Shown here: one piece after another, positions 31,539-41,955 of the stretch | Position numbering within the stretch: the stretch's first letter is position 1 | Layout: each line of letters opens with the position of its first letter | Source of the DNA: Streptomyces rubradiris | Lineage (GTDB): Bacteria > Actinomycetota > Actinomycetes > Streptomycetales > Streptomycetaceae | Direction of reading: 5' to 3' | Assembly: GCF_016860525.1 (NCBI RefSeq) | Contig: NZ_BNEA01000015.1 | Span: 3,968,001-4,032,000, forward strand | DNA length: 64,000 bases | Position numbers and translations under genes: made by a program | Notes under the pieces: generated by a model | Seen by the model: the letters and a program-made list of their open reading frames with translations, nothing else | Database searches by the model: none | What the model was told of the DNA's origin: nothing

Positions 31539-33716
31539 ATGCGCACAGGCGAGCCCCTGCCGTCCGTCGGGGAGGTCCTCGCCGCCCTCGCGACCGGGCT
31601 GTGGCACTGGGACACGGCCGCCGGCCTGGTCACCCTGGACGCGGAGGCGGCGCGGCTGCTCGGGCTGCCCGCGCGGCCGGTCACCCTCACCGAGGCCCAG
31701 GCCCGGGCCCGGCTGCACCCCGTCGACTGGAACGAGGTCGCCGGGGTGGTGCGGCTGGCCGCCGCCGAGGGCACCCTCGCCGAGGTCCGCATCCGGGTCA
31801 TGGACGCCGACGGCCGCATCCTGCGGGTCGTCCGCAGCCGCTCCAAGCCGTCCTTCGACCCCGAGCGGCGCACCTACGAACTCTTCGGCACCCTCCAGGA
31901 GGTGACCGAGCCCGCCCCGGGCACGGCCGCGGCCCGCAGCGCGGTCACCGGCGACTGGCGGCGCTCCCGGGAGGCGTTCCTGCTGGACGCGGGCCGGGCG
32001 CTGGCCGAGGCGCGGTCCACGGCCGAGGTGCTGCGGGTGGCGGGGGGCCTGTCGATGCCCGGCTTCTCCCCGGACGGGCTCGTGGTCTACGGCGTGGAGG
32101 GCGACCGGCTGACGATCACCGGCCAGCACGGACACCACCCCGGCGACATGAACCCCTTCTCCAACATGCCGCTGGACACCGACTACCCGGCCGCCGAGGT
32201 GGTCCGCACCGGGCGGGCCGTCTACCTGTCCTCCCCGGAGGAGTACCGGGACCGCTACCCGGCCACCTGGCCGCTCGCCCGGCGCTTCGGCCGCCACTCG
32301 TGGGCGTTCCTGCCGCTGACGGCCGCCGGGCGCACGATGGGCGCCTGGATGGCCGCGTTCACCTACCCGGTGGCGTTCACGCCCGACGAGCGCGCGGTGC
32401 TCACCACGGTCGCCCGGATGCTCGCCCAGGCGCTGTCCCGGGCCGGTGCCGCCGAGTCGGAGCGGGAGCTGGCGGAGGGCCTGCAACGCTCCATGCTGCC
32501 GTCGCTGGGTCCCGAGGTCCCGGGGATGCGGATCGCCGCCCGGTACATCCCGACCGGCGGCGGACTCCAGGTGGGCGGCGACTGGTACGACATGATCCCG
32601 CTGCCCTCCGGCCGCTTCGCCCTGGTCATCGGGGACGTCCAGGGCCATGACGTGCGCGCCGCCGGGATCATGGGCCAGCTGCGGATCGCGCTGCGCGCCT
32701 ACGCCGCCGAGGGACACCGGCCGGACGCCGTGCTCTCCCGCGCCTCCCGCTTCCTGAACGGGGTCACCGACGGCTCCGGGCCCGGCGCCCCCGCCGACCC
32801 GCGCTTCGCGACCTGCCTGTACGTGGAGGCCGACCCGGTGACCGGCCTGCTGGAGGTCGCCCGCGCCGGGCACCCGGACCCGGTGATCCGGATGGCGGAC
32901 GGCACGGTGATGATGCGGCCGACGGCGGGCGGGCTGCCGCTGGGCGTCGACCCGGACGCCGACTACCCGACGACCCGGTTCACCCTCGAACCCGACGAGA
33001 CGCTGATGCTGTGCACCGACGGCCTGATCGAGACCGGCGGGCACGACCTGGAGAGCGGCTGGCGCAGGCTGCGGGTGCTGCTGGAGGACCACCGCCCGGG
33101 GGAGTACCGCCAGGAGGACCTGGAGGAGCTGGCCGACGCGCTGGTGCAGGCGGTGCACGGGCCGTCCTCGCACCACACCACCGGCCCGCTGGCCGACCGC
33201 CGCGAGGACGACATCGCGCTGGTGCTGCTGTGCCGGCCGGCCGCGGCCTGCGGACGCGACGGCACCGCCACGGCCGGGCCCCCGGTGCGGCGCACCCTGC
33301 TGTCGGTGGCCCAGGACGAGCCGGACCGGATCGCCGAGGCCCGCCAGCACCTGCGCGAGCTGCTGCACGACTGGGCCTCGCCCGAGCAGGTGGACTCGGC
33401 GGTGCTGCTGGTCTCCGAGATGGTCACCAACGTGCTGGTGCACACCGACGCCGACGCGCTGCTGCTCGCCGAGGTCCTCTGCGGCGAGGGCGGGCGGCGG
33501 CTGCGGGTGGAGGTCTTCGACACCGGCGACGACCTCCCGCACAAGCGCCGCCCCGGCGAACTGGCCTCCTCCGGCCGCGGCCTGATGCTGATCGAACTCC
33601 TCGCGGACACGTGGGGGGTGGTCCCCCGGGGCGAGGGCAAGAGCATCTGGTTCGAACTGGGGGAACGGACGGGGGCGAAAGCGCCCGGGACCCCGCCGGG
33701 CTCGTACGTCCCGTAG
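31539..33716 (+). CDS. multidomain regulator: PAS, GAF, PP2C phosphatase and HATPase kinase-like domains
   Basis: A 725-residue cytoplasmic signalling protein. PAS-like sensor about 10-125, GAF about 145-310, SpoIIE/RsbU-type phosphatase about 315-565 (VGGDWYDM, VIGDVQGHDVRAAG, LCTDGLIE, DDIALVLL) and a C-terminal RsbW-like ATPase about 590-715 (SEMVTNVLVHTD, FDTGDDLP, GRGLMLIELLA). One protein thus combines the phosphatase and the anti-sigma kinase activities of partner-switching systems, a combination common in Streptomyces. TAAAGT ends six bases before ATG 31539, so it is probably leaderless. The stimulus and sigma partner are unknown. Confidence 0.9.
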   Translation: MRTGEPLPSVGEVLAALATGLWHWDTAAGLVTLDAEAARLLGLPARPVTLTEAQARARLHPVDWNEVAGVVRLAAAEGTLAEVRIRVMDADGRILRVVRSRSKPSFDPERRTYELFGTLQEVTEPAPGTAAARSAVTGDWRRSREAFLLDAGRALAEARSTAEVLRVAGGLSMPGFSPDGLVVYGVEGDRLTITGQHGHHPGDMNPFSNMPLDTDYPAAEVVRTGRAVYLSSPEEYRDRYPATWPLARRFGRHSWAFLPLTAAGRTMGAWMAAFTYPVAFTPDERAVLTTVARMLAQALSRAGAAESERELAEGLQRSMLPSLGPEVPGMRIAARYIPTGGGLQVGGDWYDMIPLPSGRFALVIGDVQGHDVRAAGIMGQLRIALRAYAAEGHRPDAVLSRASRFLNGVTDGSGPGAPADPRFATCLYVEADPVTGLLEVARAGHPDPVIRMADGTVMMRPTAGGLPLGVDPDADYPTTRFTLEPDETLMLCTDGLIETGGHDLESGWRRLRVLLEDHRPGEYRQEDLEELADALVQAVHGPSSHHTTGPLADRREDDIALVLLCRPAAACGRDGTATAGPPVRRTLLSVAQDEPDRIAEARQHLRELLHDWASPEQVDSAVLLVSEMVTNVLVHTDADALLLAEVLCGEGGRRLRVEVFDTGDDLPHKRRPGELASSGRGLMLIELLADTWGVVPRGEGKSIWFELGERTGAKAPGTPPGSYVP

Positions 33717-33721
33717 GCACG

Positions 33722-34936
33722 CTAGCGGTCGCCCGGCCGGCCGCCCGGCGGTTGCTCCGGGCGGTCCGGCGGTTCGCCGCGGCGGTCCCGCAGCTCCGCC
33801 CAGACCCCGAAGGCCGCCGCGGTCACCGGTACCGCGAGGAGCATGCCGAGGATGCCCGCGACGGAGGCGCCCGCGGTGATCGCCACCAGCACCACGGCCG
33901 GGTGCATCTGCACGGTCCGGCTCTGGATCACCGGTTGCAGCACATGCCCCTCCAGCACCTGCACCGCGAGCACCACCCCGAGCGCCCACAGGGCGATCAC
34001 CAGGCCCCGGTCGGCGAGGGCGACCAGCACGGCCACCGCGCCGGAGATGAAGGCACCGAGATAGGGGATGTAGGCGCCCACGAAGACGAGCGCGCCGAGC
34101 CCGATCGCGCCGGGCACCCTGAGGACCAGCAGGCCGACGGTGATGCACAGGGCGTCGATGAGCGCGATGAAGGTCGTCCCGCGCATGAACCCCTCCACCG
34201 CGGCGAAGGCCCGCCGGGCGATGGCCTCCAGGGTGTCGGCGCTGCCACCGGGCGCGACGGCGCGCAGGGCCACGAGGGCGCGGCGGGAGTCGCGCAGGAA
34301 GAAGAAGACGAGCAGCAGTGCGAGGACGGCCATGGCGACGCCCTCGGCGACCGCACCGACCCCGCTGACGACGTTGGACACGGCCGTCCCGCCGAACCTG
34401 CGCAGCAGTTCGGGCGCCTTGGCCACGAGGTCGTCCAGGCCGGCCCCCGCGGCCCCGAAGTGCCGGGCGACCCCTTTGGCGGCGTCCCGCAGCGAGGCGC
34501 TGATCTCCGCGCCGCTGTCGACGAGCGCGGCGACGACGATGTACACGGCGCCGCCGACGACGGCCACGACGGCGGCACAGGTAAGCCCGGCCGCCACCGA
34601 CGCCCGCACCCCCGCCCGCACCAGCCGCCGGTACAGCGGTCCGAGCAGCGCGGTGCCGAGCAGGGCGAGCAGCACCGGCGTGACGGCCGTCCGCAGCTCA
34701 CCGCACAGCCGTACGCCGACCCAGCCCACCCCCGCGACGAGCAGCAGCACGACACACCAGGCGGCGAGGCGACGCACGGGTTCGGGCAGCGGGAGCACCG
34801 TCCCAGCCGAACACACACACCACCCGCTGTCCCGCCGCACGGGGCCGTACGGGCGAGGCAGCCGCACGGGGCCGTACGGGCGAGGCACGCCCGCCGGCCT
34901 CGGGAGGACTCGGGCCCCGCCGCCCCCGGCCGTCAC
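33722..34936 (-). CDS. AI-2E family transporter (membrane permease)
   Basis: A 404-residue frame; the hydrophobic core starts at RRLAAWCVVLLLVAG (about residue 55) and has about eight membrane segments. The family block GALVFVGAYIPYLGAFISGAVAVLVAL lies near residues 283-310. Family members export small solutes; the AI-2 role is proven only for a few. The start is uncertain. GTG 34936 overlaps (GTGA) the fossil end of another gene and includes a 9-residue in-frame repeat (LPRPYGPVR), while GTG 34798 (358 residues) is a plausible alternative. The 5' end is one of two copies of a duplicated junction. Confidence 0.82.
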   Translation of the reverse strand: MTAGGGGARVLPRPAGVPRPYGPVRLPRPYGPVRRDSGWCVCSAGTVLPLPEPVRRLAAWCVVLLLVAGVGWVGVRLCGELRTAVTPVLLALLGTALLGPLYRRLVRAGVRASVAAGLTCAAVVAVVGGAVYIVVAALVDSGAEISASLRDAAKGVARHFGAAGAGLDDLVAKAPELLRRFGGTAVSNVVSGVGAVAEGVAMAVLALLLVFFFLRDSRRALVALRAVAPGGSADTLEAIARRAFAAVEGFMRGTTFIALIDALCITVGLLVLRVPGAIGLGALVFVGAYIPYLGAFISGAVAVLVALADRGLVIALWALGVVLAVQVLEGHVLQPVIQSRTVQMHPAVVLVAITAGASVAGILGMLLAVPVTAAAFGVWAELRDRRGEPPDRPEQPPGGRPGDR

Positions 34937-34976
34937 GTACCCCGGCCGCCCGGGAGTCCGGGACGGCGGAACAGCC
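34738..34976. repeat. left copy of a duplicated junction flanking the 35-36.5 kb insertion
   Basis: About 85 percent identical by eye to 36373-36545, apart from an extra stretch that includes a 27-bp in-frame duplication. It contains the 5' end of the AI-2E gene plus the last codons of the zinc-finger/Asp23 gene: on the minus strand it reads FRRPGLPGGRGT then stop, against FRRPGSPGGGGT stop in the intact gene. Confidence 0.75.
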
Positions 34977-35006
34977 CCGGCCCCTGCCCCGGCTGAGAGT
35001 GGCGAT

Positions 35007-35648
35007 TCAGTCGCTGACGATAGCGGCCAGGTCGGTCAGTCGGTCGATTCGCCAGTCCGCCGTCGCGATGACGTCCGGGTCACTGGCCCAGAGATGCCCC
35101 CATGGTCCCCGGCGCAGGTGCGCGGTCCGTAGTCCGGCTGCCGCCGCGGGGAATACGTCGTTGGCCGGGTGGTCGCCGACATACAGCGTCTCCTCGGCCG
35201 GGGCCTGCCCGGCCTCGACGGCCCGCTGGAAGAACTCCGGTTGCGGCTTGGCTACGCCCCACTCACCGGACGTCGCGATCACGTCCGCCGGCAGGTCAAG
35301 GGCCCGAAGCAGATCACCAGCGCGGGCGGTCTGGTTCCCGGCGATGACGACCCGGACGCCGAGTCGACGCAGCTCGGCCAGTGCGGGCCGGACGTCGTCG
35401 TACAGGTCACTGTCGTCCAGGTGCTCGCCACGGCCGGCGGCCTCCCGTGCCCGGTACTCGGCTGTGACGTTGATGTCGGGTCGGACGAGGCGGAGGGCGT
35501 CAGCGTTATCGCGGCCCTGCGCAACGACCGCTCCGACGAGCGCGGAGAGCGTGTGGCGGGGGACGTCCAGCCAGTCAGCCCACGATGCCCAGTACCGATC
35601 GTCTCGAACGAGTGTCTCCCCGACGTCGAAGATCACAGCGCGAATCAT
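35007..35648 (-). CDS. HAD family hydrolase
   Basis: A 213-residue phosphatase-type enzyme. Motif I is FDVGETLV (the usual DxDxT/V with Gly-Glu in the middle), motif II is VIAGNQT, the motif III Lys lies in GVAKPQPEFF, and motif IV is YVGDHPANDV. A helical cap (about 15-95) fits subfamily I. It lies in the inserted segment between the duplicated junctions with remnants of two other genes, and is the only gene there that looks intact. Substrate unknown. Confidence 0.85.
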   Translation of the reverse strand: MIRAVIFDVGETLVRDDRYWASWADWLDVPRHTLSALVGAVVAQGRDNADALRLVRPDINVTAEYRAREAAGRGEHLDDSDLYDDVRPALAELRRLGVRVVIAGNQTARAGDLLRALDLPADVIATSGEWGVAKPQPEFFQRAVEAGQAPAEETLYVGDHPANDVFPAAAAGLRTAHLRRGPWGHLWASDPDVIATADWRIDRLTDLAAIVSD

Positions 35649-35732
35649 GCGGGCAGGGTACCGGGCACGGTGAAAGGCCCCCTCCCGCTCGCAGGCGAGA
35701 ACAGGGCACGCGGATCAGGGGTACTGCCGACG

Positions 35733-35876
35733 CTACGGATCGTGCGTTCGGTTGATGGCATTCACCAGGTCCGCCCGCCGCGCCCACAGGGTGACGTCGC
35801 AACCGGCGTCGGCCAGGACGAGGGAGAACGCGGTTCCCCACGATCCGGCTCCGTAGACGGCAACGCGACGAGACAT
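35733..35876 (-). pseudogene. gpsA remnant: N-terminus of NAD(P)H-dependent glycerol-3-phosphate dehydrogenase
   Basis: A 47-codon frame from ATG 35876 with a good AAGGAG site encodes [20 protein letters not shown] and continues to [17 protein letters not shown] before a TAG. This is the Rossmann GxGSWGTA nucleotide-binding start of GpsA; the full enzyme needs about 330 residues. The rest of the gene is absent. The remnant starts 13 bases after the methyltransferase remnant, which suggests a former operon. Both lie inside the inserted segment. Confidence 0.75.
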
Positions 35877-35889
35877 AAGGGTGACTCCT

Positions 35890-36366
35890 TCAGTCCTCGG
35901 GGCGCCTCAATGCAACCGTGACCGCCTGCCGGCCCGCGAGAGCCGGCCCGCGCGTCCTGGCCTCCGTGAGCATGCTGTCCGCCTGGTCGTTGCCGAGCTG
36001 GGCGCGCAGCTCCGCCTCGTGCTCGATCCACAGTTGGTAGAGGCGCTGCCACATCGCTGGTTCGTGCTGCCGTTCCTCCTCGGCGTCCAGGATCAGCCCG
36101 GTGCCCGCCGCCTGTTCCTTCCACGGTGGCAGGACCGGCCGGGTCCGGTTGCGACCGGAGGTGAGGACCGCCCGGGCGCCGGGCTTGAGCACCCGCCGGC
36201 TCTCCTCCAGCACCGCGCGCCGGTCCCGCGCGAACCCGATGGCGTCTACGCAGACCAGGCCGTCCGCGTACCGGGAGGGCAGCCCGGTGGAGGCCAGGGA
36301 GCCCTGGAAGAACTCCGCCCGCTCCGGCGGCACGCCTAACTGCCGGGCGCGGCCGGCGGCCAGGCC
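35890..36366 (-). pseudogene. methyltransferase remnant lacking its N-terminal SAM-binding region
   Basis: The frame that ends at 35890 shows GLPSRYADGLVCVDAIGFARDRRAVLEESRRVLKPGARAVLTS, the middle and C-terminal part of a class I SAM-dependent methyltransferase. Motif I, which binds SAM, is missing: upstream of about 36366 the frame runs into the duplicated AI-2E/Asp23 junction. The open frame continues to 36516, giving a 208-codon chimera that may or may not be translated. Leu60 of the chimera is a TTA codon, rare in this kind of genome and read by the bldA tRNA. Confidence 0.65.
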
Positions 36367-36372
36367 GCGCGC

Positions 36373-36545
36373 CGAGCAGCAGCACAACGCACCAAGCGGC
36401 GAGCCGGCGCACGGGTGGGCAACGGGAGCACCGTCCCAGCCGATCACGCGCACCGCCCGCTGTTCCGCCGAACGGGGCCGGGCCGGCCGCCCCCGGTCGT
36501 CACGTACCACCGCCACCCGGGGAGCCGGGACGGCGGAACGGCTCC
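36373..36545. repeat. right copy of the duplicated junction
   Basis: Matches 34738-34976. On the minus strand it includes RRLAAWCVVLLLGAR, a degenerate copy of the AI-2E permease N-terminus (frameshifted and with an in-frame stop upstream), directly after the intact end of the zinc-finger/Asp23 gene. Confidence 0.75.
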
Positions 36546-37153
36546 CACACCGGCTCCGGCTCCAAAACGTCGATCACGGCGATGTCGACGGCCGTGACCG
36601 CCATGCCCAGGTCCTGTCCGGCCGAGCGGAGGACCGTCCGGCGCACCTGGTGGACCCGCTCGGGCAGCGGGTGGTCGAGAGCGGCGGCCAGGGTCATGGT
36701 CACCCGCACGCCGATGCCGTCGCCCACGGGTACGAGCCGGCAGGCGGCGGCCCTGGCACCGGGGACCGTGTCGGCGGCCCGCCGGAGCACCTTCGCCGCG
36801 GCGCTCTCGGCGATGCGCGGTTCCCGGCCGGGGCCGGCCACGGGCAGCAGCCGGCCGCGCCGTACCTCCGCCCTGACGGTGTCCATGACGCGTGCGGCGA
36901 GCGCGCGGAGGCCGGGCGGGTCCTCGGCGCGCAGCGCCCGGGTGGCCGCGCTCACCGCGGCCAGTCCCTCGGCGGCCTCACGGCAGTGGGGGCAGGAGCG
37001 GGTGTGCGGATCGGCGGCCGGCACCGCGTCCCGGGCCTGTTCCCAGGCCCGGCTGAGCAGCCGGCCGCAGGAAAGTACCTCATCGCCCTCGAACGGAGGT
37101 CCGTCGGCGGCGGGCGGTTCGGAAGGCCGCGTCCGCGGGCCGTCTAGCGCCAT
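36500..37153 (-). CDS. putative anti-sigma factor: zinc-binding HxxxCxxC segment fused to an Asp23-type domain
   Basis: A 217-residue protein. ATG 37153 overlaps the end of the ECF sigma gene (stop at 37144), so the two are coupled. HTRSCPHC at about residues 49-56 is the HxxxCxxC signature of zinc-containing anti-sigma factors. It is followed by an Asp23/Gls24-like domain (about 105-205; RIAESAAAKVLRRAADTVPG, VTMTLAAALDHPLPERVHQVRRTV). There is no membrane helix. The likely role is to bind and inhibit the adjacent sigma factor, with the Asp23 part linking it to the envelope proteins encoded by the divergent operon. The architecture is read from sequence; the function is inferred. Confidence 0.68.
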   Translation of the reverse strand: MALDGPRTRPSEPPAADGPPFEGDEVLSCGRLLSRAWEQARDAVPAADPHTRSCPHCREAAEGLAAVSAATRALRAEDPPGLRALAARVMDTVRAEVRRGRLLPVAGPGREPRIAESAAAKVLRRAADTVPGARAAACRLVPVGDGIGVRVTMTLAAALDHPLPERVHQVRRTVLRSAGQDLGMAVTAVDIAVIDVLEPEPVWEPFRRPGSPGGGGT

Positions 37154-37734
37154 GGGCTCATCGCCTCCTGGAGGGACCGGCGGGCCCGGAACAGCCGGCC
37201 GCGCACCGTCTGTTCGCTGGTCCGGGTCACCTGGGAGATCTCCTTGTAGGACAGGCCCTGCACCTCCCGCAGGATCCAGCAGATCCGCTGCCCGGCGGCC
37301 AGATCGCCGAGCGCGCGGCACAGGGCGGCGGTGGCCGCGTCCTGCTCGGCGAACCGGGCGGGCTGGCTCCAGGCGTCCTTCGCCGCGGGCTCGGCGACGG
37401 CGTCCAGCGGGAGCGGTGACGGCCGGCGACGGCGCATGGTCAGGCAGCGGTTGACGGTGATCCGGTGCATCCAGGTACGGAACTCCGCGCCGTGGCGGTA
37501 TTCCGGGAGCCGCCGCCAGGCGCTGACGAAGGCGTCCTGAACGGCCTCCTCGGCGTCCTGGGGGTCGCCGAGCATGCAGCGGGCCAGGGCCAGCAGGGGC
37601 CGGCCGTGCCGCTGGACGAGAACGGCGAAGGAGTCCTCGTCCCCCTCGGCCGCCCGTACGGCCAGCAAGCCGTCCGGCAGGTCGCGCACTGGCAGGCCGG
37701 GTTCCGGTGGTGGTGGGACAGTGCGTTCGATCAT
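37144..37734 (-). CDS. ECF RNA polymerase sigma factor
   Basis: A 196-residue sigma factor from ATG 37734. Region 2 (about 35-100) includes LGDPQDAEEAVQDAFVSAWRRL and FRTWMHRITVNRCL; region 4 (about 130-190) includes LSYKEISQVTRTSEQTVRGRLFRARRSL. It overlaps the zinc-finger/Asp23 gene and diverges from the Asp23 operon. It probably drives that operon in response to envelope stress, but the promoter motif is not clear. GGAAC at 37812-37816 resembles an ECF -35 half. Confidence 0.9.
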   Translation of the reverse strand: MIERTVPPPPEPGLPVRDLPDGLLAVRAAEGDEDSFAVLVQRHGRPLLALARCMLGDPQDAEEAVQDAFVSAWRRLPEYRHGAEFRTWMHRITVNRCLTMRRRRPSPLPLDAVAEPAAKDAWSQPARFAEQDAATAALCRALGDLAAGQRICWILREVQGLSYKEISQVTRTSEQTVRGRLFRARRSLQEAMSPWR

Positions 37735-37781
37735 GACGCCCCGCACGAGGCTCGGGGCCGTCCGGGTACCCGGGAGGGAGT

Positions 37782-37797
37782 TGTGATGCACGTCACA
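37782..37797. promoter_or_regulatory. Crp/FNR-type palindrome TGTGA-N6-TCACA
   Basis: TGTGATGCACGTCACA is a perfect match to the CRP consensus half sites and to the GTG-N6-GNCAC pattern reported for Streptomyces Crp. It sits 48 bases upstream of the sigma gene start (37734) and 96 bases upstream of the Asp23 gene start (37893). Confidence 0.6.
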
Positions 37798-37892
37798 CTT
37801 CATTCGCGTGAGGAACGCGCTGCCCGTTATGTCCAACTCTGCGACGGGCGCCACACCGGTGTCCGACCGAGCGACCGATCGAGGCGACCGCC

Positions 37893-38378
37893 ATGACGGA
37901 CAACATCACCAGCGTCGGCGGGGGCGGCGGGCCCGACACGGGCGTGAGCGCGCTCAAGGGCCGTACCGGAGCCGGGGCTCCGGCCGAGACACGGGGGAGG
38001 ACCACCATCGCGGACGGCGTGGTGGCCAAGATCGCGGGCATGGCCGCCCGCGAGGTGCCGGGCATCTACAGCCTGGGAGCGGGGATGGCCCGCGCCTTCG
38101 GCGCCATGCGGGAACGCGTCCCCGGAGGAGCCGCGGGAGCCGTCACACGGGGAGTGAAGGTCGAGGTCGGCGAGCGTCAGGCCGCGGTGGACCTGGACGT
38201 CGTCGTCGAGTACGGCGTCTCCATCGTCGACGTCGCGGGCAACGTCCGCACCAACGTCATCGGCGCCGTGGAGCGGATGACCGGCCTGGAGGTCGTCGAG
38301 GTGAACGTCGCCGTCGACGATGTCCGGCTGCCCGACGACGAGGAAGAGGCCGAACCGGACGAGGGCCGCGTGAGGTGA
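37893..38378 (+). CDS. Asp23/Gls24 family envelope stress response protein
   Basis: A 161-residue protein with the Asp23 domain at about 35-145: TTIADGVVAKIAGMAAREVPGIYSLG, then VEVGERQAAVDLDVVVEYGVSIVDVAGNVRTNV and GLEVVEVNVAVDDV. In staphylococci Asp23 is tethered to the membrane by AmaP. Here it is first in a five-gene operon that ends with an AmaP-like protein. The N-terminus is Gly-rich and the C-terminus acidic. Confidence 0.9.
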   Translation: MTDNITSVGGGGGPDTGVSALKGRTGAGAPAETRGRTTIADGVVAKIAGMAAREVPGIYSLGAGMARAFGAMRERVPGGAAGAVTRGVKVEVGERQAAVDLDVVVEYGVSIVDVAGNVRTNVIGAVERMTGLEVVEVNVAVDDVRLPDDEEEAEPDEGRVR

Positions 38379-38385
38379 GTACACG

Positions 38386-38553
38386 ATGAACGCAGCGACG
38401 ACGGGCCTCGCGGCCGGCATGGCCCTGGGCTTCGCCGGTTACTTCGGCGGCTTCTGGGCTTTTCTGCTGGTGCTGGTCCTGGGCGCGGTGGGGCTGCTCG
38501 CCGGTCTCGGCGTACAGGGCGACCTCGACCTCCGGGCCCGGAGGCAGCGGTGA
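38386..38553 (+). CDS. small membrane protein of the Asp23 operon, DUF2273-like
   Basis: A 55-residue protein, ATG 38386 to TGA 38553. One long hydrophobic stretch (about 8-42, LGFAGYFGGFWAFLLVLVLG) forms one or two helices, followed by DLDLRARRQR. It begins 8 bases after the first Asp23 gene and shares GTGA with the next gene. Small DUF2273 membrane proteins occupy the same place in other Asp23 operons. Confidence 0.75.
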   Translation: MNAATTGLAAGMALGFAGYFGGFWAFLLVLVLGAVGLLAGLGVQGDLDLRARRQR

Positions 38554-38957
38554 GGACCGGGCGCGGCTCCCCCGGCGGGGCGTCGGGGGAACCGGCGCCG
38601 GGTGCCGGTCTGCCGCCTCCGGCCGACCGGGGCGCCACCGTCATCCCGGACCGGGTGGTCGCCCGTATCGCGACCCAGGCCGCGCGCACGGCCCAGTCCC
38701 GGCGCGCCGCCGTACCGCCGGAGCGTGGCGGGCCGACGGCACCCAGCGCCACCGCCGCCGTCCGTACCGGGTCGGTGCGCCTGCACCTGGCCCTGGACCT
38801 GCCCTATCCCACCGACATCCCCCAGGTCTGTGCGCGAATCCGGCGGGACGTCGCCGACCGGGTGGCCCAGCTGACCGGCCTGCGGGTGGGAGAGGTCACC
38901 CTCACCGTCCGGCGGCTGGTGACCGCCGCCGGAACGGGCCGGGGGCGGGTCCGGTGA
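38550..38957 (+). CDS. Asp23/Gls24-like protein (short, divergent)
   Basis: A 135-residue protein whose GTG overlaps the preceding stop. Residues about 28-60 (ATVIPDRVVARIATQAARTA) and 75-125 (LHLALDLPYPTDIPQVCARIRRDV, LTGLRVGEVTLTVRRL) follow the Asp23 pattern. An Arg/Pro stretch replaces the loop between them. It may form mixed assemblies with the first Asp23 protein. Confidence 0.75.
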   Translation: MRTGRGSPGGASGEPAPGAGLPPPADRGATVIPDRVVARIATQAARTAQSRRAAVPPERGGPTAPSATAAVRTGSVRLHLALDLPYPTDIPQVCARIRRDVADRVAQLTGLRVGEVTLTVRRLVTAAGTGRGRVR

Positions 38958-39012
38958 CCGGCCGCACGGCGGTCCCGGCCACCGGGCGCGCCACGCGGGA
39001 AGGGGCAGCCCG

Positions 39013-39669
39013 ATGACACCCGACCCGGGCCCCGACCGCTCCGCGCAGCGTGCCACGGTGCCGCTGACGAAGGAGCCCGCTCCGCCCGGACGCGACGTGC
39101 CGGGCGGTGGGCGCGGCAGCGGGCGCCGGACCCGCCGGCCGTGGTCCGCGCGCCGCGTCCCGGCCGCGCTGGTCGCCGCGGTGGTCGTCGTCGCGGCGGT
39201 CGCGGCGCTGGCCGACGTCATCGCCGTACGGGCGGGACGCCCGGCGGCGGCGTGGCGACGGCACCTGGCCGACGCGCTGGCCACCCGCCCCGTGGACGAC
39301 GTGTGGATGCTCACGGGCGCCGCCGTGGCCGCCGCCGCCGGCGTCTGGCTGCTCGTCCTGGCCCTCACTCCCGGTCTACGGCACTGGCTGCCCCTGCGCC
39401 GCCCCGCCGACTGCCCCCGGCTGCGGGCCGCCCTGGACCGGGACGGGGCCGCCGCCCTGCTGCGGGACGCCGCGACGCGGGTCCCCGGGGTCGGCGCGGC
39501 GCGCGTCCGGGTACGCCGCCACCGCGTCAAAGCCCGCGCGGACGTCCGCTTCCGAGACCCCCGGCAGGTGAAGGAGGACCTCACCGCCGCCCTCGACGAG
39601 GAGTGCGACCGGCTGGCCCTCGCCCGTCCTCCCCGCGTCGCCGTACGCGTGCGGCGACGCACCGACTGA
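39013..39669 (+). CDS. DUF6286-like membrane protein of the Asp23 operon
   Basis: A 218-residue protein with a charged N-terminus, two membrane helices (about 50-70 and 98-118) and a cytoplasmic C-terminal domain (about 130-215: LLRDAATRVPGVGAARVRVRRHRVKARADVRF) that resembles the Asp23/AmaP type of small alpha-beta domain. It follows the short Asp23 gene by 55 bases and precedes the AmaP-like gene by 23. Confidence 0.75.
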   Translation: MTPDPGPDRSAQRATVPLTKEPAPPGRDVPGGGRGSGRRTRRPWSARRVPAALVAAVVVVAAVAALADVIAVRAGRPAAAWRRHLADALATRPVDDVWMLTGAAVAAAAGVWLLVLALTPGLRHWLPLRRPADCPRLRAALDRDGAAALLRDAATRVPGVGAARVRVRRHRVKARADVRFRDPRQVKEDLTAALDEECDRLALARPPRVAVRVRRRTD

Positions 39670-39692
39670 CCGACGCAGCACCGGAGCCCGTC

Positions 39693-40301
39693 ATGACGCC
39701 GCGATCCATCCTCAACCGCAGTCTGCTGGGCCTCGCCGGACTGGTCCTGCTCGGGGGCGGGCTGCTGATCCTCTTCGCCGGGCTGGACCTGTACCGGCGG
39801 CGCGGTCTGGTCCCGCCCGACGGCTGGCCCCTGACCGCCCCGGCCGACGTCCTGCTCGGGTCCGCCGACCGGACCCGCTGGAGCGGCCAGGGCTGGTGGT
39901 GGTGGCCCGCGGTGATCGCCGCGCTCGCCCTCGTCGCCCTGCTCGCCCTGTGGTGGCTGCTCGCCCAGCTGCGCCGGCGCCGCCCCGGCTCCCTGCCCGT
40001 CGGCGGCACACCCCCGCAGGAAGGCGTCGAACTGCGCGACCGGGCGCTGAGCGACGCGATCGCGGCCGAGGCCGGGGCCCTGCCGGGGGTCGACCACGCG
40101 ACCGTACGCATCACCGGCCGGCCCGCCCGCCACCACACCCGCGTCGGGCTCACCCTCGCTCCCGGGGCCGCGCCGGGCGCCACCCTCGGCGCCCTCTGCG
40201 AAGGCCCCCTCCGCACCGCTCGCCGGTCCACCGGCCGGCCCGACCCGCCCACGGAGGTACGCCTCCACGTCACCCGCCACAAGCCGCACCGCGCGGAGTA
40301 G
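39693..40301 (+). CDS. AmaP-like alkaline shock response membrane anchor protein
   Basis: A 202-residue protein with two N-terminal membrane helices (about 10-30 and 72-90) and a C-terminal domain (about 115-200: ALSDAIAAEAGALPGVDHATVRITG). This is the layout of AmaP, which anchors Asp23 to the membrane in firmicutes. It is last in the Asp23 operon. A 92-base space separates it from the convergent pirin gene. Confidence 0.78.
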   Translation: MTPRSILNRSLLGLAGLVLLGGGLLILFAGLDLYRRRGLVPPDGWPLTAPADVLLGSADRTRWSGQGWWWWPAVIAALALVALLALWWLLAQLRRRRPGSLPVGGTPPQEGVELRDRALSDAIAAEAGALPGVDHATVRITGRPARHHTRVGLTLAPGAAPGATLGALCEGPLRTARRSTGRPDPPTEVRLHVTRHKPHRAE

Positions 40302-40393
40302 GCGGGAAGCGGAGCGTTTCCGCTCACGTCCCCGGAGAGCCGGTGCCGACCGGTCGCCTCCCGTCCTCGGTACCCGGCCGCCGGAGCCCGTTC

Positions 40394-41365
40394 CTACATT
40401 CCGCCCTCGGTCATCCCGTGCACGGCCGGAACGGTCCCCAGGCGGCCCTTGCGGAAGTCCTCGAACGCCTGCTGGAGCTCCTCGCGGGTGTTCATGACGA
40501 ACGGGCCGTAGTGGGCCATCGGCTCACGGATCGGCCGGCCGCCGAGGAGGACGACCTCCAGGTCCGGGGTGTGGGAGTCCTGCCGCTCGTCCGCGCGCAC
40601 GGTCAGCGAGCCTCCCGCGCCGAAGACGGCCGTCTGGCCGAGGTGAATCGGCCGGCGCTCCCTGCCGACGCTGCCGCGGCCCGCGAGGACGTACGCCAGC
40701 CCGTTGAAGTCCTCCCGCCACGGCAACGTGACCTCCGCACCCGGTGCCACCGTCGCGTGGATCATCGTGATCGGCGTGTGCGTGACGCCGGGCCCGGCGT
40801 GCCCGTCCAGCTCACCGGCGATCACACGCAGCAGCGCGCCGCCGTCGGGCGTGGTCAGCAGCTGGACGTTGCCGCCGCGGATGTCCTGGTAGCGCGGGGC
40901 CATCATCTTGTCCTCGGCGGGGAGGTTCACCCACAGCTGGAGACCGTGGAAGAGGCCGCCGGACACGACCAGCGACTCCGGCGGGGCCTCGATGTGCAGC
41001 AGGCCGGAGCCGGCCGTCATCCACTGGGTGTCGCCGTTGGTGATGGTGCCCCCGCCGCCGTGCGAGTCCTGGTGGTCGAAGACGCCGTCGATGATGTAGG
41101 TGACGGTCTCGAAGCCGCGGTGCGGGTGCCAGGGGGTGCCTTTGGGCTCGCCCGGCGCGTACTCCACCTCCCCCATCTGGTCCATCATGATGAACGGGTC
41201 GAGGTGGCGGTAGTTGATCCCGGCGAACGCCCGGCGCACCGGGAATCCCTCACCCTCGAAACCGCTCGGGGCGGTCGTGACGGCGAGCACGGGACGTGCC
41301 ACGGCATCGGCGGGAGCGGTCACACGGGGCAGCGTCAACGGGTTCTCGACGGTCACTGCGGGCAT
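40394..41365 (-). CDS. pirin family protein
   Basis: A 323-residue bicupin. The iron-binding signature HPHRGFETVTYIIDG lies at about residues 80-94, with LLHIEAPPE and GLFHGLQLWVNLP following. Pirins act as redox-sensitive regulators or quercetinase-like dioxygenases; the sequence does not decide between them. An imperfect palindrome upstream (41394-41410) resembles MarR-type operators, but no MarR gene is adjacent. Confidence 0.9.
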   Translation of the reverse strand: MPAVTVENPLTLPRVTAPADAVARPVLAVTTAPSGFEGEGFPVRRAFAGINYRHLDPFIMMDQMGEVEYAPGEPKGTPWHPHRGFETVTYIIDGVFDHQDSHGGGGTITNGDTQWMTAGSGLLHIEAPPESLVVSGGLFHGLQLWVNLPAEDKMMAPRYQDIRGGNVQLLTTPDGGALLRVIAGELDGHAGPGVTHTPITMIHATVAPGAEVTLPWREDFNGLAYVLAGRGSVGRERRPIHLGQTAVFGAGGSLTVRADERQDSHTPDLEVVLLGGRPIREPMAHYGPFVMNTREELQQAFEDFRKGRLGTVPAVHGMTEGGM

Positions 41366-41393
41366 GGCGGGTACCTCCTTGGTACGCCCACTT

Positions 41394-41410
41394 TAGTTGA
41401 GCGTTGAACT
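41394..41410. promoter_or_regulatory. possible MarR-type operator upstream of pirin
   Basis: TAGTTGAGCGTTGAACT has outer AGTT/AACT arms and a direct GTTGA repeat. It lies 29 bases upstream of the pirin start, where it would overlap the promoter. Confidence 0.35.
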
Positions 41411-41475
41411 TCTTGTCGCCCACAACAGAAGAGGCCCGGAGAGAATTCCCTCCGGGACCGCGTCCGGGTGACCGC

Positions 41476-41955
41476 TCAGCCGCCGCCGTACATGCGCCGC
41501 ATCGCGAAGTCGACCATCTGCTCGACCGCCTTGGCGTCGAACACGATCCGGTGCTCGCCCTCCATGTCCAGGACGAAGCCGTAACCGGTGGGCAGCAGGT
41601 CGATCACCTCGGCGCCGGTGATGACGAAGTACTTGGACTCCTTGCCCGCGTACCGGCGCAGCTCCTTCAGCGAGGTGAACATCGGGATCACCGGCTGCTG
41701 GGTGTTGTGCAGCGCGAGGAAGCCCGGGGTGTCGCCGCGCGGGCAGTACACCTTGGAGGTGGCGAAGATCTGCTGGAAGTCCTCGGCGGCCATCTGCCCG
41801 GTGGTGAAGGCGCGCACCGCGTCCGCGAGCGAGGGCGGGGACGGCTCCGGATAGAGCGGCGGCTGCTGGCCGTACCCGCCGACACCGCCCGGCATCTGCT
41901 GCTGCGGCGGGGCGTACTGCTGCTGAGCGCCCACGTTCTGGTCGTAGCCGTACAT
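41476..41955 (-). CDS. SseB-like protein
   Basis: A 159-residue protein. The first 50 residues are Gln/Pro/Gly-rich; the rest (about 55-155: LADAVRAFTTGQMAAEDFQQIFATSKVYCPRGDTPGFLALHN, MFTSLKELRRYAG) fits the SseB N-terminal domain, a small alpha-beta module of unclear function. TACGCT ends 7 bases before ATG 41955, so the mRNA is probably leaderless. Confidence 0.78.
   Translation of the reverse strand: MYGYDQNVGAQQQYAPPQQQMPGGVGGYGQQPPLYPEPSPPSLADAVRAFTTGQMAAEDFQQIFATSKVYCPRGDTPGFLALHNTQQPVIPMFTSLKELRRYAGKESKYFVITGAEVIDLLPTGYGFVLDMEGEHRIVFDAKAVEQMVDFAMRRMYGGG

Follow-up and report, generated by a model that had tools for sequence, protein, structure and literature searches.

A gene-carrying insert between two copies of one gene junction in Streptomyces rubradiris

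In Streptomyces rubradiris, the boundary between a zinc-finger/Asp23-like gene (asp below) and the gene of an AI-2E-family permease occurs twice, and a HAD hydrolase gene stands between the two copies together with parts of two other genes. We have little doubt that this arrangement is an insertion flanked by a duplicated junction. The inserted DNA itself is very probably a mosaic, in which the 3' part of a methyltransferase gene and the 5' part of a gpsA gene have been joined to a HAD gene from other surroundings. As to its origin, we lean towards an old insertion scar made by break repair (end joining or polymerase template switching) that captured foreign fragments.

The window, i.e., the whole stretch of DNA analysed here, is 64,000 nucleotides long and belongs to an assembly of 9.05 Mb in 22 contigs; at this locus, the named species that matches it most closely is Streptomyces achromogenes. 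The genes of interest form a row on the minus strand: sigma factor, asp, right junction copy, methyltransferase remnant, gpsA remnant, HAD, left junction copy, permease. In relatives the usual upstream neighbour of the permease is a pirin gene; in the window a block of the asp and sigma genes stands between the two. The features, in the direction of the row and beginning with the pirin gene, are as follows.

40394..41365, minus strand: pirin gene (Pfam Pirin)
37144..37734, minus strand: gene for an ECF-type sigma factor, at the head of the row (Pfam Sigma70_r2 and r4_2)
36500..37153, minus strand: zinc-finger/Asp23-like gene (asp), 217 aa, intact open reading frame, its tail lying within the right junction copy
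36365..36561, minus strand: right junction copy, made of the asp tail, a shortened spacer and the first 59 nt of the permease (repeat search, alignment)
35890..36372, minus strand: 3' part of a methyltransferase gene, with one TTA codon (Pfam Methyltransf_11; alignment)
35733..35876, minus strand: 5' part of gpsA, a 47-codon ORF (Pfam NAD_Gly3P_dh_N, residues 5-45)
35690..35740 (approximate limits, by eye), minus strand: about 50 bp between gpsA and HAD that match neither context
35007..35648, minus strand: HAD-family hydrolase gene, complete, 213 aa (Pfam Hydrolase, E 5.6e-17)
34730..34994, minus strand: left junction copy, made of an asp tail without the gene body, a 134-nt spacer and the permease head (repeat search, alignment)
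33722..34798, minus strand: AI-2E-family permease gene, intact, 358 aa (AI-2E_transport, E 3.3e-51; start common to S. achromogenes)

The G+C content of the insert is 0.713, compared with 0.755 and 0.757 in the adjoining genes and 0.733 in the window. The asp product is 88% identical to one S. achromogenes protein. The gene, named zinc-finger/Asp23 in an earlier note made from the sequence, has no match in Pfam or NCBIfam; some of its homologues carry the source names Asp23/Gls24.

The duplicated junction and its uninterrupted counterpart

The junction, consisting of asp tail, spacer and permease head, is present at 34,730-34,994 and again at 36,365-36,561. A repeat search finds three collinear blocks: 34,730-34,781 against 36,365-36,416 (52 nt, 87% identity), 34,784-34,854 against 36,417-36,487 (71 nt, 86%) and 34,913-34,994 against 36,480-36,561 (82 nt, 80%). 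The local alignment of left and right copies scores 103.5, against a mean of 18.8 (sd 4.8, maximum 36) for 482 control segments from the same window. The left side has a bodiless asp tail followed by the whole permease, and the right side has the whole asp gene followed by a permease that stops after 59 nt; the joint of the right copy with the methyltransferase lies at about 36,373/36,372. These results agree with the earlier note, which had described both flanks as the end of the asp gene joined to the start of the permease, the left copy reading FRRPGLPGGRGT-stop and the right copy RRLAAWCVVLLLGAR, with a HAD gene, 47 codons of gpsA and a headless methyltransferase between them, all of which we find on the minus strand. 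The note had bounded the copies at 34738-34976 and 36373-36545; the repeat lies there and extends slightly past both limits. The left spacer also contains an exact 27-nt tandem duplication (34,834-34,887) that the right copy lacks and that is probably a recent small event.

We looked for a duplicated junction at this locus in others (84 loci, 82 distinct because L189 is L057 and L190 is L049; L110, too short, was left out). The window's own duplication is recovered at E 4e-34. The locus L101 has repeats confined to its spacer (E 2e-14 to 3e-12), and seven further loci match more weakly, at E 2e-7 to 5e-4: L095, L065, L104, L042, L116, L047 and L102. In L101, several tandem-like repeats of about 50-60 bp lie in the spacer, 200-400 bp upstream of the permease.

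S. achromogenes NRRL B-2120 (L041) has a single, uninterrupted junction whose flanks are 91.3 and 92.7% identical to those of the window, so the insert in the window looks derived. Among the best 80 of 418 permease loci, all from named genomes and two with less than 2 kb upstream, this is the one locus with an asp gene in the upstream stretch. Matches to asp occur in 114 of 392 genomes, the window's own included, and among 29 asp loci from other genomes the permease lies within the 1.5-kb flank in one, G231 (L128), which likewise has no insert. The earlier note's proposal of an insertion flanked by a duplicated junction is thus supported by the uninterrupted S. achromogenes junction and by the absence of the insert in G231. 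The finding that the note named as contrary to its proposal, HAD, gpsA and methyltransferase intact at this site, appears in no relative among these 80 permease loci or the asp loci listed. The scar itself is found in the window's own genome and no other among overlapping sets of 392, 394 and 316 genomes (in the 394-genome search, the right copy plus asp served as query, at E 1e-40). Synteny between S. achromogenes and the window ends near window position 40,309, short of the pirin gene, and L041 contains no pirin match (its side at about 1-1,018). We also observe in G365 two close asp relatives about 54 kb apart (C1:2,314,227 and 2,368,313).

How old is the duplication? In the permease-head region, identity is 78-85% between left and right, 82-85% between left and S. 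achromogenes and 76-82% between right and S. achromogenes. In the asp tail, left and right share 49 of 65 positions (75%), and each copy shares 54 of 63 (86%) with S. achromogenes. A tree of 15 sequences groups the left and right copies with an ultrafast bootstrap of 88; all alternatives survive the KH, SH and AU topology tests (AU p 0.305-0.308), and bp-RELL alone excludes one. By two methods, dS between the window and S. achromogenes is 0.125 or 0.21 for asp and 0.154 or 0.28 for the sigma gene, values too near the left-right divergence to order the duplication relative to the S. achromogenes split; the permease comparison was out of frame and is left out here.

A second strain, Streptomyces sp. 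CSDS2, appears to have the same scar, judging from one predicted protein of 144 aa (P0136), encoded on a 74-kb contig, that contains the joint of permease head and methyltransferase. Translated in a different frame, the permease leader and head correspond to its residues 2-27, and the methyltransferase follows directly. Over these residues the protein matches the left copy at 20 of 26 positions and S. achromogenes at 21 of 26, and its match to the right copy of the window is split over two frames by a 2-bp deletion (11 and 12 of 26). Its methyltransferase part has an in-frame loss of its own. This points to common descent of the joint in the two strains or to transfer of the joint between lineages.

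The permease start and the pirin-permease interval

The ancestral order that the earlier note had proposed, asp directly followed by the permease with a GTGA overlap, holds in part. The uninterrupted asp-permease site exists in S. achromogenes. Direct adjacency is itself derived, given a small ORF between the two genes in G231 and the pirin gene that stands close to the permease in 44 of 80 loci, and the GTGA is probably not the permease start. The permease start common to S. achromogenes is the GTG at 34,798, which lies 134 nt downstream of the left stop, against a distance of 139 nt in S. achromogenes. The GTG of the GTGA, at 34,936, shares the permease frame in the window (giving a 404-aa ORF) but not in S. 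achromogenes, and is probably not the conserved start. In G231 a 125-codon ORF, beginning at the asp stop, lies between asp and permease; it has a weak match to Asp23 (E 0.0022), below the Pfam curated cut-off. The S. achromogenes spacer opens with a stretch that by eye resembles this small ORF. The GTGA would then mark where a small gene, since lost, once began, and its agreement with the permease frame in the window would be due to chance.

A pirin gene occurs within the locus in 72 of the 80 permease loci, at up to about 310 bp in 44, at 0.44-4.0 kb in 27, and on the opposite side in one. The interval between pirin and permease (34,798-40,394 in the window) varies in length and genes across the 80 loci. 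Seven intervening ORFs were printed from six loci; two are alike (one of this pair is a GNAT acetyltransferase) and the rest differ. Since the pirin gene of the window lies at 40,394-41,365, the Asp23/sigma block itself falls inside this interval, with the scar nested in it. Genes may have been gained here repeatedly.

Composition and decay of the insert

With the whole insert as query, matches at E 1e-20 are found in 179 of 392 genomes (own included), the strongest being to HAD. The methyltransferase-gpsA part matches 130 of 392 genomes at E 1e-15, mostly by its gpsA part alone; with two candidates scored per genome, both genes are spanned at four places, two in G191 and one each in G295 and G129. 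In G191 (L181) the row reads TfuA, YcaO, methyltransferase and gpsA (Pfam), and G295 (L182) has by eye a similar TfuA-YcaO row. YcaO-TfuA gene clusters (PMC8120280) are comparable in that relatives of this part follow TfuA and YcaO genes; the scar differs in holding a tail piece only. HAD relatives have other neighbours; in L185, for example, the relative precedes a gene for an HTH regulator. The flanks of 29 HAD loci, spanning about 1.5 kb or less where a contig ends, contain neither gpsA nor the methyltransferase, and HAD occurs in none of three methyltransferase-gpsA loci. The same holds for the HAD loci L184-L187 with longer flanks (L185 being bounded by its 6.9-kb contig). The donor operon of methyltransferase, gpsA and HAD that the earlier note had suggested searching for was therefore not found, and we reject a single donor operon, the two parts never occurring together in these loci. 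It counts against a mosaic that the two parts could be neighbours in a donor outside the sample.

No close donor was seen. The closest HAD relatives among the genomes drawn, in G141 and G220, reach 91% aa identity, and the best full-length methyltransferase (P0122, 262 aa) reaches 75%; the joints are placed approximately. Two HAD proteins at 98% (P0002 and P0003) and a methyltransferase remnant at 99% (P0121) come without a source and hence are not counted as independent strains. Elsewhere in the window's own genome, the one copy of any insert piece is a housekeeping-like gpsA match, 78% over 87 bp. The inserted DNA is ectopic by context, as the relatives of its pieces stand in other surroundings in other genomes, and the pieces are presumably foreign to this lineage.

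The earlier note held that the foreign DNA had decayed after entry. Decay can be seen in gpsA, in the methyltransferase and in the permease head of the right copy, but not in HAD, which is complete. The methyltransferase remnant aligns to P0122 from residue 103 of the latter onward. The right permease head has the 2-bp deletion mentioned above and a branch of 0.25, against 0.07 for the left. For HAD, dN/dS is 0.11 against G220 and 0.10 against G141, values from which selection in its present place does not follow because much of the divergence must predate the insertion. For the methyltransferase, dN/dS by NG86 is 0.63 and 0.55 against two relatives and 0.25 between these relatives, and YN00 gives 0.15 for the single computable pair; as evidence of drift these values are not clear.

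Origin of the scar and its meaning

Capture during break repair is the likeliest origin because unrelated pieces are joined, no recombinase gene was found (the three insert ORFs scanned contain no recombinase, transposase or integrase) and the genome has Ku, with two matches above the Pfam cut-off. The asp/permease boundary would have been opened and about 1.4 kb of foreign DNA built in, namely the methyltransferase 3' part with the gpsA 5' part, about 50 bp of no matched source and a whole HAD gene, unrelated fragments being captured as filler during end joining or template switching. Staggered ends that were filled in, or a switch back upstream, would have left the boundary (about 250 bp) on both sides. 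The outer genes would have been kept whole, with the redundant permease head and asp tail, the methyltransferase and gpsA free to drift, and HAD would have been kept complete; it now stands in the same orientation as its neighbours, after the sigma and asp genes and ahead of the permease. We infer the repair route, the single event and any co-transcription of the row.

The closest precedent speaks both for and against this route. In Streptomyces ambofaciens, repaired breaks contained five insertions of 30 bp to 18.8 kb, all of endogenous DNA; as a speculation, the authors suggest that DNA from outside might be incorporated in the same way (PMC5869714). As we propose for the window, unrelated DNA stands there at a healed break in a Streptomyces chromosome, and Ku is encoded in the window's genome too. 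Unlike in the window, where the pieces have no copy in their own genome beyond the gpsA match, the inserts there came from the genome itself, and that account, as far as it goes, describes no long flanking duplications (PMC5869714). A literature search found no recognisable bacterial precedent with such duplications, which is no proof of their absence from print.

Could one of the two copies be foreign? DNA from a related Streptomyces, carrying its own junction and the insert, may have entered by homologous recombination and produced a merodiploid. We consider this unlikely, even though the three copies (left, right and that of S. achromogenes) differ from one another to about the same degree and the asp tails of left and right are less alike than either is to S. 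achromogenes; given these distances, one copy may be foreign, which counts against the break-repair route. The best tree pairs left with right (although KH, SH and AU leave the alternatives standing), and the arrival of the insert between two junctions of the donor would itself go unexplained. We know of no DNA uptake of the natural-transformation type in Streptomyces. Merodiploids of Streptococcus pneumoniae resemble the window in that chromosomal sequence is duplicated after DNA uptake and differ in that they arise, in the account cited, by natural transformation (PMC3784515). Another possibility is that the asp-permease segment was once duplicated in tandem over a greater length, then trimmed by deletions and filled with foreign DNA, the 250 bp being what remains. 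This fits the limits of the copies, the right one breaking off within the permease and the left one starting within asp, like deletion ends, and the two asp matches of G365 could be cited in its favour; needing several steps, and with no tandem copy in any relative among the loci examined, this duplication strikes us as rather improbable. That direct repeats flank the segment might also suggest the decayed remains of a mobile element, with a long direct repeat left behind, and near the ends there is a weak inverted pair (34,880-34,902/36,348-36,370, 23 nt, 78% complementary). This pair, the only one near both insert ends among 25 of 101 pairs listed, does not stand out from the other pairs spread over the region, the insert ORFs scanned have no transposase or integrase, no tRNA or tmRNA lies in 33,000-41,500, and target-site duplications are usually far shorter than this repeat. 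We give a mobile element hardly any weight.

A further parallel exists in Arabidopsis, where transposed genes stand, as here, between direct repeats that match the empty target in a sister species; those are plant cases of whole genes, mostly with shorter repeats, for which circle excision and integration is proposed (PMC2869330, as far as that account goes). It is tempting to suggest, as a possibility we hold only tentatively, that Streptomyces break repair can in one event stitch together several foreign fragments, duplicate a target of about 250 bp and add a complete gene to a row, a counterpart of plant filler-DNA movement at an interval that gains genes repeatedly. As genome scars go, this one is of an ordinary kind, though clear and readable. 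With an empty site, a target present twice, pieces of differing context and the joint in a second strain, its age and decay could be followed. It is a natural case of gene gain without sign of a mobile element, and it draws attention to the stretch between pirin and permease as one in which genes accumulate. Should the repair reading prove correct, the scar would illustrate a way for end joining to introduce foreign genes into the chromosome of a Streptomyces.
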